Assembly (NCBI GenBank): GCA_951828385.1 | Contig: OX639973.1 | Location: 806,001-870,000 of the forward strand | DNA: 64,000 nucleotides | DNA from: an uncultured Poribacteria bacterium | GTDB lineage: Bacteria; Poribacteria; WGA-4E; WGA-3G | Reading direction: 5' to 3' | Shown here: piece by piece, positions 48,329 through 60,305 of the stretch | How positions within the stretch are numbered: the stretch's first letter is position 1 | Layout of the letters: the number at the start of each line of letters is the position of its first letter | Notes under the pieces: model-generated | Databases searched by the model: none | What the model saw: only the letters and a program-made list of their open reading frames with translations | What the model was told of the DNA's origin: nothing | Made by a program: the position numbers and the translations under genes

Positions 48329-49357
48329 ATGTTTGTTCCGGTGACGAGTCAAACAGGTCAGAAGTTGATGCCTACGCATGCTAACAAGGCGGGCGTGCTG
48401 ATTAAGAAAGGTTTAGCCACGCCCTATTGGTCTAATGGGATATTCTGTATCCGGCTTAACTATGCGCCCGAAGACGCATACACACAAGATATAGTCGTCG
48501 GTGTAGACCCCGGTAGCAAGAAAGAAGGCTTTACCGTCAAATCAGAGGCACACACTTACTTGAATGTGCAAGCAGACGCTCACGGGACTGTCGGCAAGAA
48601 AGTCGCGAAGCGTAGTGAGTTGCGTAGAAGTCGGCGTTCACGAAAATGTCCGAATCGCAAACAGAAAAAGCACAATCTATCTAATAGAGACCGTATCCCC
48701 GCAGGCACGCGTGCGAGATGGGATTGGAAGTTAAGGGTTCTTGATTGGCTTTCTAAACTCTATCCACTCACGCATGTCTGCGTTGAAGATATTAAGGCGC
48801 CGACGATACAACGTGCAAAGAAGTGGAATCAATCGTTTAGTCCTTTGGAAGTCGGTAAACAGTGGTTCTATAGCGAAATCCAAAAGCGTTGGGAACTCTA
48901 CACTTTACAGGGGTGGGAAACCAAAGAGATACGGGATAGGTTAGGTCTCAAGAAGTCTTCAAAGAAACTATCAGAAACCTTTGACGCACACTGTGTAGAC
49001 AGTTGGTGTCTGGCACATCATAGCGTAGGCGGTTTGGATATACCCGATACCACGACGCTTCTGTGTATCTCACCGATACCGATAAAACGCAGAGAGTTGC
49101 ATAGGCAACAGGAAGCGAAAGGCGGTAAACGCACACGGGTGGGCGGAACTCTATTAGGGAAAGGATTGGTCAAAAACACACTCATTCGGCATGTCAAATA
49201 CGGATTAGCCCGACTCGCTGGCGTTAACGCAAAGGGTTTGTTTTCAATATACAGTATGAAAAATAAACGATTAACAACAGGCGCGAAACGCTCTGATTTC
49301 AGAGTGCTAACACGTCTTAACTTTTACTACAAGAGCGGTGTTTCCTCCCCTGAATGA
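48329..49357 (+). CDS. isrB: IsrB-type RNA-guided nickase (IscB-like without HNH)
   Basis: A 342-residue protein of the IscB/IsrB group, relatives of Cas9. The N-terminal PLMP-type domain reads QKLMPTHANKAGVLIKKGLA (10-29). RuvC-I has Asp60 in VGVDPGSKKEG, then an Arg-rich bridge helix (about 88-115), RuvC-II Glu153 in VCVEDIKA, and RuvC-III His221/Asp224 in HCVDSWCLA. Only about 65 residues separate RuvC-II from RuvC-III, with no HNH CxxC or HxxP motifs, so the HNH domain is absent, as in IsrB (typically near 350). The C-terminal RRELHRQQEAKGGKR block is the usual TAM-recognition region. AAGGGAG precedes the ATG. Confidence 0.88.
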   Translation: MFVPVTSQTGQKLMPTHANKAGVLIKKGLATPYWSNGIFCIRLNYAPEDAYTQDIVVGVDPGSKKEGFTVKSEAHTYLNVQADAHGTVGKKVAKRSELRRSRRSRKCPNRKQKKHNLSNRDRIPAGTRARWDWKLRVLDWLSKLYPLTHVCVEDIKAPTIQRAKKWNQSFSPLEVGKQWFYSEIQKRWELYTLQGWETKEIRDRLGLKKSSKKLSETFDAHCVDSWCLAHHSVGGLDIPDTTTLLCISPIPIKRRELHRQQEAKGGKRTRVGGTLLGKGLVKNTLIRHVKYGLARLAGVNAKGLFSIYSMKNKRLTTGAKRSDFRVLTRLNFYYKSGVSSPE

Positions 49358-52390: not shown

Positions 52391-54697
52391 ATGAAAAAAT
52401 TGATTTGTTCATTGCTAACACTAAGTTTAGCACTACTCGCTTTAACAGCAAGTTACACCGAAGAAGGGACGGATATAGAACTCTTGCGGGCAGCTGATGT
52501 TAATGCTGATAGGATCATAAACATTCTCGATTTGGTGCTGATCGCCTCACACCTCGGTGAGACATCCACCGCAGATCAGCCTCTGAGTTCAGATGTCAAC
52601 GGGGATAGTAATGTCAATATTCTTGACTTGGTTCTCGTCGCGAGTTATCTTGGCGAAACCGTCAGGCCGCCTGTGGTATTCGTGAGTGCGGACCCAGCGA
52701 TTGACTCCGAGATTACGGTGAACGATACTATCACACTAACCTTTGATAATTCGCCAGAGGATGTTACTGTTAGTGAAGGCATCGCTACGATCACCGATAA
52801 TACCGTCACAATTGCTGGTCCCTTCACCCCCGGCACTCTTGAGATGACGATCACTTGGGCAGATAGTTCCGAGACACTTAACTATACCGTTCGGCAACCT
52901 GCGGATTTCGTGAGTGCAGAGCCAGCAGTTGATTCGGAGATTACCACGAATGATAGTATCACGCTGACGTTTGATCATCCACCAGAGGACGTTACTGTTA
53001 GTGAAGGCGCTGCTACAATCTCTGATAATACTGTCACAATTGCTGGTCCCTTCACCCCCGGCGCGCTTGACTTGAAGATTACTTGGGAAGATGGCACTGA
53101 AACGCTTTCATACACTATCAGACCTCTTGTCGCATTCACTGGAGCTGAACCAGAGAGCGGGGCGAAAATTACGACAAACGATACTATCACCCTGACTTTT
53201 GATCATCCACCAGAGGATGTTGCTGTCAACACCGGTGTCGCCACAACTAATGGAAATACTGTCACAATCACGGGGCCTTTTACACCCGGCGCGCTTGACT
53301 TGAAGATTACTTGGGAAGATGGCACTGAAAAGCTTTCATATACTATCAGACCCTTTGTGGCGTTCGTTAAGGCGAAGCCAAAGAGCGGGGCGAAAATTAC
53401 GACAAACGATACTGTCACCCTAACTTTTGATAACTCACCAAAAGATGTTACAGTAAGTGAGGGTGTCGCTATAACTAAGGGGAAAACTGTCACAATCACG
53501 GGGCCTTTTACGCCCGGCGCGCTTGACTTGAAGATTACTTGGGAAGATGGCACTGAAACGCTTTCATATACTATCAGACCCTTTGTGGCGTTCGTTAAGG
53601 CGAAGCCAAAGAGCGGGGCGAAAATTACGACAAACGATACTATCACCCTAACTTTTGATCATCCACCAGAGGATGTTGCTGTCAACACCGGTGTCGCCAC
53701 AACTGATGGAAATACTGTCACAATCACGGGGCCTTTTACACCCGGTACGCTTAACCTGAAGATCACTTGGGAAGATGGCACTGAAAAGCTTTCATACACT
53801 ATCAGATCGCCTATAGCATTCGTTAGCATTGAGCCGACAGTTGACTCTCCGCTTACTGTGGACAGTAGCATCACGCTTACCTTTGACAACCGACCAAGGG
53901 ATGTCACTGTTAACACGGGTGTCGCTACAACTAAGGGGAAAACTGTCACAATCACAGGGCCCTTCACACCCGGTGCACTTGAATTAACAATCACTTGGGC
54001 AGATGGAAGTTTAACGTTTACTTACACAGTTGCTGCACCAGATACTGAAGTTCCCTCAATCACCGGTGGAACTATCAGTGATGGTGACACAAAGGTTGAC
54101 CCAAGTGCGACGATTGAAATCGAGTTCAGTGAAGAGGTAAGCGGCACCATCGCACTGCAAACTGAAGCTGGCGATGATGTTGGATGGACCGGCACAATTG
54201 AAGGCAAAAAAGCGAGGCTTGAACTTGTCAAAGGCAAAGAACTTGGGCATGAAACAACCGCGATAACTTACATGATTGTAGGGAAAGTCGAAGACGCTGC
54301 GGGCAACGAAACGGATATCAATATTACTTTTACCACTGCCCCTCAATACGACGGCATCCCGATTGAAGTCACCGATGCGACCTTTGACAGCATTGTGCTT
54401 GAATCTGAGATTCCGATTGTGGTTGAGTTTTATACGGATTGGTGACCGTTCTGTCATATAATGGCGCCAGTTGTCGCCGAAATTGCCTTTGAGCAGCGGA
54501 ACACATTTGCTATCGCGAAGTTAGATCGTGAAGAGAATAATAAAATAGCCCAAAGATATGGAATTAGAATACAACCGATTTACCTTGTATTCCAAGATGG
54601 AAAGCTTGTGGAACCGCACCCGCGTTTGTTAGGCAAGATACCGAAAGACGATTTTGTCCAAAAGGTGCTTAATGCCATAAATATTGAAGAAAATTAG
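52391..54697 (+). CDS. secreted dockerin/repeat protein with C-terminal selenocysteine thioredoxin domain (in-frame TGA)
   Basis: Read through one TGA (54443-54445) this is a 768-residue protein. A signal peptide (1-23) is followed by two dockerin type I-like Ca-binding repeats (DVNADRIINILDLVL and DVNGDSNVNILDLVL, about 35-90). Six 76-residue beta-rich repeats cover 95-550, and an SbsA/Big-like Ig domain with FSEEVSG about 551-650. A thioredoxin domain spans about 655-768. Its active site reads FYTDW-U-PFC: TGA takes the place of the first cysteine of WCxxC, with Cys at +3. The cis-Pro is in IQPIYLVFQDG. A SECIS-like hairpin follows. A stop mutation is the alternative, but the adjacent paralogue has the same TGA. 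Confidence 0.8.
52673..54040 (+). repeat. six tandem 228-bp coding repeats (76 residues each)
   Basis: Six in-frame copies beginning near 52673, 52901, 53129, 53357, 53585 and 53813. Core phrases are TITLTFDHPPEDV, TVTITGPFTPG and KITWEDGTE. Copies 3-5 are nearly identical over long stretches (GCGTTCGTTAAGGCGAAGCC at 53359 and 53587, exactly 228 apart), pointing to recent duplication or gene conversion. Outer copies are more divergent. Confidence 0.92.
54443..54478 (+). promoter_or_regulatory. candidate bacterial SECIS element of the first selenoprotein
   Basis: Downstream of the TGA, GGCG (54463-54466) pairs with CGCC (54475-54478), with an inner C-G pair closing the loop AGTT (54469-54472). 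The loop starts 23 bases after the TGA and has G as its second base. Both fit the published bacterial SECIS pattern (loop 16-37 bases from UGA, G among the first two loop bases). The stem is short, so this is weaker than the second one. Confidence 0.55.
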
Positions 54698-54774
54698 GCG
54701 TTGATGATCAGGTATAGCGTTGGAAGCTGCTGCGAGTGTGAGGCTAAGGCATAAATACTAAGGACAGAAAACGT

Positions 54775-55383
54775 ATGAAAAAGTTGATTTGTTTGTTGCT
54801 GACATTAAGTTTGACACTCGGATTCTGGACAACAAGTTCCGCCGAAGCTGAAGATTTCGATGCTCGGAGTGCATCTGATGTCAACACTGATGGCTTCGTT
54901 AACATCCTTGATTTGACGTTCATCGCCTCACAGCTTGGTGAAATGCCAGCCGAAGATCAGGTTCCCAACCCGGATATTAATAGGGACGGGATCGTCAATA
55001 TTTTAGATTTAGTGCTCGCTGCAAACTATTTAGGCAAAACATCCGGTGTCCCTTTTGAAGTTTTTGATACTACTTTTGACGACATTGTATTGGGTTCCAA
55101 ACTTCCGATCGTCGTAGAGTTCAAATCTGAGTCCTGAATATACTGTATACTGATGAAGCCTGTGGTCACAGGCGTAGCATTAGAATATCGGGATACCTTC
55201 ACTTTTGCCAAGTTGGATGTGAACACCCAACGGGAAAAAACAACTGAATATCAAATTCGCGGAACGCCTACCTATATTGTATTCAAAGATGGAGAGACTG
55301 TAGGGAGGTTTGTCGGGGCAATGTCGAGTACTAAACTGGTAGCGCAAATTCTTGGCATCTTAGGGATTGAAGAGACTGAATAG
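54775..55383 (+). CDS. secreted dockerin-thioredoxin protein with selenocysteine (in-frame TGA)
   Basis: A 202-residue paralogue of the preceding gene without the repeat block. The signal peptide is about 1-23, with two dockerin-like repeats (DVNTDGFVNILDLTF and DINRDGIVNILDLVL, about 38-90). The thioredoxin domain runs from about residue 95 to the end. Its active site reads EFKSES-U-IYC: the TGA at 55135-55137 (codon 121) stands at the first active-site cysteine, and Cys follows at +3. The cis-Pro is in RGTPTYIVFKDG. The frame continues without interruption to TAG at 55383. A 6-bp SECIS-like hairpin lies downstream. The tryptophan before the active site is replaced by Ser. Confidence 0.82.
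55135..55173 (+). promoter_or_regulatory. candidate bacterial SECIS element of the second selenoprotein
   Basis: GCCTGT (55158-55163), loop GGTC (55164-55167), ACAGGC (55168-55173): a perfect 6-bp stem. The loop begins 26 bases after the TGA, with G at its first and second positions, matching the bacterial SECIS rules. The stem lies in coding sequence, as bacterial SECIS elements do. Confidence 0.7.
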
Positions 55384-58754: not shown

Positions 58755-59903
58755 CTAAGCAGATGGACGAACCGCCAAAGCACGAGCGACACTCTTAATG
58801 AATATCCCCCGTGCGCCGTTTAAATCCCTATCCATACATTGACCTTCTGATGACTTGATGACTTTAGAACCGCCCAGGTTCGCGACGATTTCACCTGTCC
58901 AAGACACCGTTTTAGAAGTATATGCCTCACATACGTCTTTGATTCGCACACCATATTCTTTTCCCTTTTGTTTCAAGAAGACTTTGAATCTATAGTGTGA
59001 AAGCGTTAGCATTTGCCGTGCGGTTCTGCTTCGCAACTTCCGCCCCCCGCGTTTTGTCATCTGTTTCGTCTCAAAAGTCGGGAGCAAAATAATATCAAAG
59101 TTTTTTACGAGGAAGTGAGCGATCTTCTTGTGAAGTTCATCAATGAGGTTACGGATTTTGTCTCTGATTCTGTTCGCTGCTTTTCGCAAGGCACGCCGTA
59201 GCGGGCGTTTCTCCTGCGTCGCACGTGATAAAAGATTATCGCAGTGTTGACAAAGCCTTTGGATACGGTTGATACACTGCTGTCCTAACCAACCGAAGCA
59301 ATCTTCAGAGAAAAATGTCATAAAATCACGAACACCGGGGTCAAGTGCTACTATTCTACCGCTTGGTTCTCGCGTCTTTTTCTTCTCAATGTATGATACA
59401 CAAAGAAAATACCTACCATTCTCGCGTATCAGTTGAGAATCCTTGACTTCTGCATCCGTCTCTCGTTCTTCTACTTTACCTTTCCCTTGAGGATTAGCGG
59501 GTAAAGGTTCTGACATTTTCATATCGCCTAAAAGTCTAACGTAAAAGCCGCTCTTTTTCAGAGAGTCGGCACGCAGATAAAGCGTCTGTCTCCGGTTCTT
59601 ACGGGAGCGAAACTTGACATGTTGGAACTTACCTGTCTGCTTACATTTGACCTTCGCATTTGAAACAGTTTGGCATGCGTCTATCACCGCACCCACCTTT
59701 ATCTGACGCGGTGTTTCCTTATGCCATTCAGGGAGTTTATCAAGGACTATAGGCACAAGTCTTTGAAAGTTTGTCGGCGTATCCTTATCATTCAACAAAG
59801 ATATTGACTCGTTGTAAGTATACCGCGAAGTGCCAAACCACTTACTCAGAATCACTTTCTGTTCCGTTGTTGGAAAGATTTCTATCTTCTTTGATTTGGT
59901 CAC
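58755..59903 (-). CDS. tnpB: TnpB protein of IS607 type, zinc finger degenerate
   Basis: About 382 residues from a GTG at 59903 (MTKSKKIEIFPTTEQKVIL, a typical TnpB start). The reading frame extends farther upstream, but that part is only the shadow of tnpA in another frame. RuvC residues look complete: Asp in RIVALDPGVRDF, Glu in LLPTFETKQM and Asp in MDRDLNGARG. The zinc finger, normally CxxC...CxxC, has lost most cysteines: EAYTSKTVSWTG replaces TSKTCxxCG, and only one Cys precedes MDRD. Some phage and IS607 TnpB variants tolerate this, so nuclease activity is uncertain. Confidence 0.75.
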   Translation of the reverse strand: MTKSKKIEIFPTTEQKVILSKWFGTSRYTYNESISLLNDKDTPTNFQRLVPIVLDKLPEWHKETPRQIKVGAVIDACQTVSNAKVKCKQTGKFQHVKFRSRKNRRQTLYLRADSLKKSGFYVRLLGDMKMSEPLPANPQGKGKVEERETDAEVKDSQLIRENGRYFLCVSYIEKKKTREPSGRIVALDPGVRDFMTFFSEDCFGWLGQQCINRIQRLCQHCDNLLSRATQEKRPLRRALRKAANRIRDKIRNLIDELHKKIAHFLVKNFDIILLPTFETKQMTKRGGRKLRSRTARQMLTLSHYRFKVFLKQKGKEYGVRIKDVCEAYTSKTVSWTGEIVANLGGSKVIKSSEGQCMDRDLNGARGIFIKSVARALAVRPSA

Positions 59904-60300
59904 GGTATCGCCGGAGTCCAGACATTCGGTAGGAAAACACGTGGAGTATTGCGAGGAGATCGGCGGTGAGTTCTTCTGCTGGACTGTAAACAGTTTCGTC
60001 GAGAACCACGACTTCTCCACCGTTTTGTTCGCCCAAGAACTGTATGACTTCGCCGCCGAATCGGGCGAGTCTATCCCGATGGGCAACAACAATCCTGAGT
60101 TTACCACCTCGCAATATACGTTCCAATAGGGTTCTAAGCCCTTTTCGCTTGAAGTTGATACCACTCCCGAAGTCTTTGATGATTTCCACTTCGGGGTAGT
60201 GCTTTTGCAAGTAGGCGACTTGGGATGCAAGAGCGTCTGATTGCGGTTTGCCACTAACTCGGCAGTATCCAATGGTAGTAAGAGTTGTTTCGGTTTGAGC
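59842..60300 (-). pseudogene. tnpA: IS607 serine recombinase tnpA, 5' end lost
   Basis: The frame from 60318 down to 59842 encodes the catalytic core: YCRVSGKPQSDALASQ with the nucleophilic Ser, then FGSGINFKRKGLRTLL, VVAHRDRLARFG and an ELTADLLAILHVFSYR helix. IS607 TnpA normally begins with a MerR-like helix-turn-helix of about 50 residues. Here a TAA lies 11 codons before YCRVS, and there is no ATG, GTG or TTG before the catalytic Ser. A TTG at 60210 would delete it. The gene is most likely inactive. Confidence 0.7.
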
Positions 60301-60305
60301 ATCAA

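Follow-up and report, generated by a model that had tools for sequence, protein, structure and literature searches.

Putative exported dockerin-selenothioredoxins encoded by two adjacent genes in a genus of Poribacteria

Introduction

Two neighbouring genes in the stretch of DNA analysed here (the window; 64,000 nucleotides) each carry an in-frame TGA at the position of the first cysteine of a thioredoxin CxxC motif, which raises the question of whether this codon ends translation or is decoded as selenocysteine (Sec). Those relatives that bear names in the genome collection are MAGs of Candidatus Poribacteria, and SelA and SelB have both been reported for most sponge symbiont bins (PMC5649159). 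A Sec-containing bacterial thioredoxin (PF00085, UxxC) is listed in the inventory of PMC13188914, which cites Kim et al. 2015, and the GOS survey describes Trx-like 1 selenoproteins as well as Trx-fold fusion selenoproteins, some of them with extra domains (PMC2398784).

Results

Architecture of the two genes and their locus

Translated with TGA as Sec, the small gene (MKKLICLLL...VVEFKSESUIYCILMKPVV...) runs to its stop codon through a single in-frame TGA. This codon replaces the first cysteine of the CxxC motif at codon 121 (ES-TGA-IYC), precisely where a sequence-only reading of the window had placed it (Table 1). The dockerin domain scores 46.3 bits against a PF00404 cut-off of 22.9 and the thioredoxin domain 67.8 bits against the curated PF00085 cut-off of 23.5, while the protein remains below the NCBIfam thioredoxin equivalog cut-off (65.6 vs 96.8 bits). 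When solved structures were searched with the small protein, only thioredoxins were among the best matches listed. AlphaFold models computed from one and from nine sequences were too poor to use (pLDDT ~40). The proline of the GTP motif is presumably the cis-proline, a role that we assign from general knowledge of thioredoxins.

The two paralogues are adjacent, as had been noted, with a gap of 77 bases rather than 78 between the end of the larger gene (54697) and the start of the small one. Their N-terminus, which comprises the signal-peptide-like start and the dockerin, is common to both (54% identity over residues 1-102 of the small protein), and the central Ig-like repeats are confined to the larger gene according to Pfam; on both points the sequence-only reading was accurate. 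The best reading of the locus is that it encodes a pair of putatively exported selenothioredoxins with dockerins, the longer of which has Ig-like repeats, and that it is conserved across the genus. The pair is flanked on one side by a uroporphyrinogen-decarboxylase/MtaA-type gene and on the other by a convergent VWA gene, both of which are present in 31 of 36 fetched regions; overall, the flanking genes are conserved in 24-31 of the 36. The order of the small and the large gene is swapped between genomes (loci L061-L096), with the flanking genes unmoved. An IscB-like RRXRR protein (48329-49357) and a TnpB-family gene (58755-60305) are encoded on the two sides of the region.

Table 1. Positions of the observed and predicted features of the two genes in the window.
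Feature	Position	Strand	Basis
Small dockerin-selenothioredoxin gene (candidate), 202 aa with TGA read as Sec, TAG stop	54775..55383	+	Orthologues at 34 other same-genus loci
AAGGA, Shine-Dalgarno-like, 10 nt 5' of ATG	54760..54764	+	Inferred from sequence reading
Predicted Sec-type signal peptide (MKKLICLLLTLSLTLGFWTTSSA)	54775..54843	+	Inferred from translation
Dockerin type I domain, two F-hand repeats (DVNTDG.. and DINRDG..)	54874..55032	+	Pfam PF00404, E 4.8e-12, residues 34-86
Thioredoxin domain	55057..55350	+	Pfam PF00085, E 9.2e-19, residues 95-192; PDB thioredoxins E 5e-16
In-frame TGA, putative selenocysteine 121, first position of UIYC	55135..55137	+	TGA in 35/35 intact orthologues; aligned with Cys in paralogues
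Putative resolving cysteine 124	55144..55146	+	Cys in 103/103 aligned domains
bSECIS-like apical hairpin GCCTGT-GGTC-ACAGGC	55158..55173	+	Stems 55158-55163/55168-55173, loop 55164-55167, 26 nt between TGA and loop
Presumed cis-proline of the Trx fold (GTP)	55267..55269	+	Invariant in nine aligned orthologues
Large paralogue, 768 aa: signal peptide, dockerin, Ig-like repeats, Big_5, putative selenothioredoxin	52391..54697	+	Translation, Pfam
In-frame TGA, putative selenocysteine 685 of the large paralogue, W-U-P-F-C	54443..54445	+	Translation; family alignment
bSECIS-like apical hairpin of the large paralogue, GGCG-C-C-AGTT-G-T-CGCC, loop 23 nt after TGA	54463..54478	+	32 distinct sequences

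The TGA is conserved and the sequence behind it is under selection

We searched a sample of 60 genomes, 36 of which, including the window's own, belong to one genus. The small gene is present in nearly every genome of that genus, and its near full-length matches (59-89% protein identity) contain one TGA each. The codon at the site is TGA in all 35 intact orthologues, the window copy counted; no Ser or Gly codon and neither TAA nor TAG occurs there, and the second cysteine is always kept. In the wider family of 103 thioredoxin domains, the site codon is TGA in 87 cases and TGT or TGC in 15, the one remaining case being an artefact (a transposase-interrupted gene), and the second cysteine is retained throughout (103/103). 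Apart from this artefact, the site is TGA or Cys in all 103 domains, the pattern proposed as a check when the gene was first read, with no Ser, Gly or other stop codon among them.

Thirteen of the 15 Cys-site domains come from the same genus (one gene was fetched twice), including a dockerin-like Cys form at locus L176. Genome G034 encodes a dockerin-like thioredoxin with Cys at the site (ADWCEPC). On the family tree the Sec/Cys label changes only twice. Among the 24 searched genomes outside the genus, a sample and not a census, the best matches inspected were ordinary Cys thioredoxins. A second locus in the window's own genome (C1:2307000-2318000) encodes one thioredoxin with Sec (AEWUGFC) and one with Cys (ADWCPFC), whose N-termini both resemble those of lipoproteins as judged by sequence reading; Sec copies of this type were seen in 14 fetched loci. 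The predicted extracytoplasmic Sec/Cys thioredoxin family thus also includes lipoprotein-like members.

The median dN/dS of the small gene is 0.13 3' of the TGA, compared with 0.17 in the signal and dockerin part. Because the TGA is conserved and purifying selection acts 3' of it, translation must run on through this codon. In genome G005 the small gene, the only copy found besides the 35 intact ones, has retained the TGA and is interrupted by a transposase gene just 3' of it; its parts lie near the ends of two contigs (L095 and L096), one on each.

The genome encodes a complete selenocysteine system

SelA is encoded in the same single-contig genome, as is SelB, which is adjoined by a tRNA-Sec with the anticodon TCA (UCA). 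SelD is encoded at C1:1330118-1331041 and has an in-frame TGA within CAGUASK, which makes it a selenoprotein candidate itself. Across the sample, tRNA-Sec scores above the Rfam threshold in 52 of 60 genomes. Since TGA still terminates 5 of the 30 long open reading frames in the window, the genetic code is the standard one.

Hairpins downstream of the TGA

Downstream of the TGA, the window copy of the small gene has the perfect 6-bp stem with a GGTC loop at a distance of 26 bases that had been reported for it, with coordinates that proved exact. Its folding energy is -7.8 kcal/mol alone and -16.3 kcal/mol together with a lower helix (55145-55188). It fits the geometry of the bSECIS model of PMC13188914, which asks for a loop of 3-9 nt with G in the first two positions, a stem of at least 4 bp, a distance of 16-37 nt after the UGA and an MFE <= -7.5 kcal/mol. 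A hairpin of bSECIS geometry is present at least once in each distinct Sec sequence; because the Cys paralogues have one as well, the geometry rule alone is not discriminating. The isolated hairpin reaches -7.5 kcal/mol or lower in only 14 of 33 small-gene orthologues, and among 27 distinct sequences of orthologues no more than 2-3 have the two outermost pairs of the 6-bp stem. One clade of orthologues has four inner pairs and the GGTC loop, while the other has a stem of up to 7 bp and a GGT loop three bases closer to the TGA. Because the register shifts between these clades, the small orthologues could not all be described by one consensus hairpin, and the orthologue alignment contains no clean compensatory change in either register. 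Rfam families were matched neither in the window nor around the hairpins.

Folding was also compared with synonymous codon resampling. Small-gene orthologues fold better than resampled sequences (z -7.4 over 12 codons, -7.0 over 8 codons), with control stretches of the same gene ranging from z -3.2 to +4.9. In both genes folding exceeds what codon choice alone predicts, whereas the Cys paralogues show no folding excess over codon resampling 3' of the corresponding Cys codon. Synonymous conservation near the small-gene stem, another check proposed at the outset, gave a weak signal: the rate test was not significant with the Cys codon column included, a column skewed by a tiny background, and once Cys columns were dropped, codons +7 to +11 ranked with the lowest synonymous windows (3 of 85).

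The hairpin of the large paralogue is more uniform, with the consensus GGNG-C-C-AGUU-G-U-CNCC and 99.4% of cells paired across its 32 distinct sequences; in the window copy its energy is -4.5 kcal/mol alone and -9.8 kcal/mol for 54 nt. Pair 23-34 shows compensatory changes (CG 20, UG 7, UA 3, AU 1), and the covariation score was reached in none of 500 shuffles. The residues encoded at this pair vary jointly (A-A, V-T, E-S), which is what base pairing would require, and there is zero synonymous change in codons +7 to +11. Both genes share C26, G28, U29 and G31 at a fixed distance from the UGA, which suggests that the putative elements descend from one ancestral hairpin. In the second Sec family (AEWUGFC), a hairpin with an AGUU loop lies 35 nt after the UGA (GAUGC-AGUU-GCAUC) and shows one compensatory change, in one relative; at codons +5 to +12 of this family folding is not above resampling (z -0.4), the better hairpin lying further downstream. 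The view that both paralogues keep a SECIS-like hairpin holds for the large gene, with its conserved hairpin and compensatory changes at one pair; the 6-bp stem of the small gene is largely private to the window copy, its orthologues having four pairs or a 7-bp stem in a shifted register. Covariation, likewise, is seen at pair 23-34 of the large paralogue and once in the second Sec family but not in the register-shifting 6-bp stem of the small gene.

Dockerin and cohesin matches in the genome

N-terminal dockerins are common in the window's own genome (6.66 Mb): dockerin-like matches make up most of 71 matches, alongside 13 cohesin matches. Given how common they are, the dockerin of the two proteins may serve as a surface module of general use. 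Some cohesin and dockerin matches appear to share one open frame. In the small-gene orthologues, both calcium-binding repeats of the dockerin are kept in the alignment.

Discussion

The conserved TGA, the selection behind it and the Sec machinery together lead to selenocysteine recoding, not nonsense mutation, as the explanation of this locus. From sequence comparison we consider it very probable that the site is decoded as selenocysteine and that both adjacent genes are real selenoprotein genes.

Were the TGA a normal stop, or the product of nonsense mutation, the small gene would yield a 120-residue secreted dockerin peptide followed by a pseudogene remnant of a thioredoxin. TGA is indeed a normal terminator in this genome, as its use in the window shows, and one sibling genome has its copy split by a transposase. 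Yet the orthologues carry the same TGA without exception and never another stop, dN/dS is about 0.13 after it, and paralogues have Cys exactly at its position; we therefore reject this explanation, which is barely credible at all, and the judgement of the sequence-only reading that a random nonsense mutation is unlikely is upheld by the same conservation and purifying selection. It is also very improbable that UGA is read as cysteine or tryptophan through a variant tRNA or a changed genetic code. Cys is admittedly the residue in the non-TGA paralogues, but the Sec system is complete with a tRNA-Sec(UCA), read-through at the other long frames that TGA terminates is usually short, and the excess folding occurs 3' of the TGA but not behind the matching Cys codon in the Cys paralogues. 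A changed code in particular is rejected, as TGA still ends genes and the full Sec set is present.

With Sec accepted, SelB with Sec-tRNA(UCA) would read the UGA as selenocysteine, guided by the hairpin just downstream, and the predicted signal peptide would direct export of the product. In the thioredoxin domain, disulphides would be attacked by the Sec selenolate and the resulting mixed bond resolved by Cys124, the mechanism of known Sec thioredoxins. The proteins most likely serve in extracytoplasmic thiol/disulphide exchange. Dockerin-cohesin binding might tether the enzyme to the cell surface or to a complex there, and the partner of the dockerin may be among the 13 cohesin matches of the genome; the Ig-like repeats would then give the longer form a different reach from the short one. 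Sec incorporation, export, redox direction, partners and cohesin docking are all deduced in this way, and for a docked extracytoplasmic redox role of both proteins we see roughly even chances. A serious competitor, to which we give somewhat less than an even chance, accepts Sec insertion and regards the dockerin as a secretion or stability module without a cohesin partner, which would make the proteins soluble extracytoplasmic thioredoxins. It would account for dockerin-like matches far outnumbering those to cohesin and for the apparent occurrence of both in the same open frame in some cases, but fits less well with the retention of both calcium-binding repeats in orthologues and with the existence of cohesin domains in the genome.

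Classical dockerins have a carbohydrate enzyme as their cargo. Here, the cargo is a predicted thiol oxidoreductase and the dockerin is N-terminal, while the two calcium-binding F-hand repeats and the secreted context are those of dockerin type I modules (PF00404). With the Sec thioredoxin of PMC13188914 the proteins share the Trx domain, Sec at the first UxxC position and the second Cys; they differ from it by their signal-peptide-like start and dockerin fusion and, in the larger form, by Ig-like repeats. The motif itself is U-I-Y-C or U-P-F-C instead of the CGPC usual in thioredoxins. Selenoproteins in the excerpts of the GOS survey (PMC2398784) are likewise marine, have UxxC and a Trx fold and are in some cases fused to extra domains; the fusions in those excerpts involve Prx, Prx-like and UGSC proteins, and a dockerin fusion is not described there. 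None of the literature searched mentions Poribacteria together with a selenoprotein or with a dockerin, a literature that leaves subscription papers mostly outside and in which absence is not proof; the sole co-mention of selenoprotein and dockerin is in a paper that appears to be about carbohydrate-active enzymes. Sec thioredoxins (UxxC) and dockerins are thus known parts, and their fusion was not found in the literature searched. The claim of a previously undescribed dockerin-selenothioredoxin family is narrowed accordingly: the selenothioredoxin was already known (PMC13188914), and what is new is the combination with a dockerin, in a putatively extracytoplasmic Sec/Cys thioredoxin family.

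Because standard gene callers stop both genes at the TGA, the family is probably mis-annotated in Poribacteria genomes. It brings together selenium chemistry, a docking module and a predicted extracytoplasmic location in a phylum associated with sponges. The two neighbours, the lipoprotein-like Sec paralogue and the close Cys forms make up a compact natural series of Sec/Cys exchange within one genus, which also suits the study of how a SECIS hairpin moves within coding sequence. Tentatively, and with the odds slightly against it, the genus may run a selenium-based extracytoplasmic redox system, in which exported selenothioredoxins, docked by dockerin-cohesin binding or possibly anchored as lipoproteins, would edit the disulphides of surface proteins. 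If true, selenium would here be put to a use of which the literature searched gives no description.
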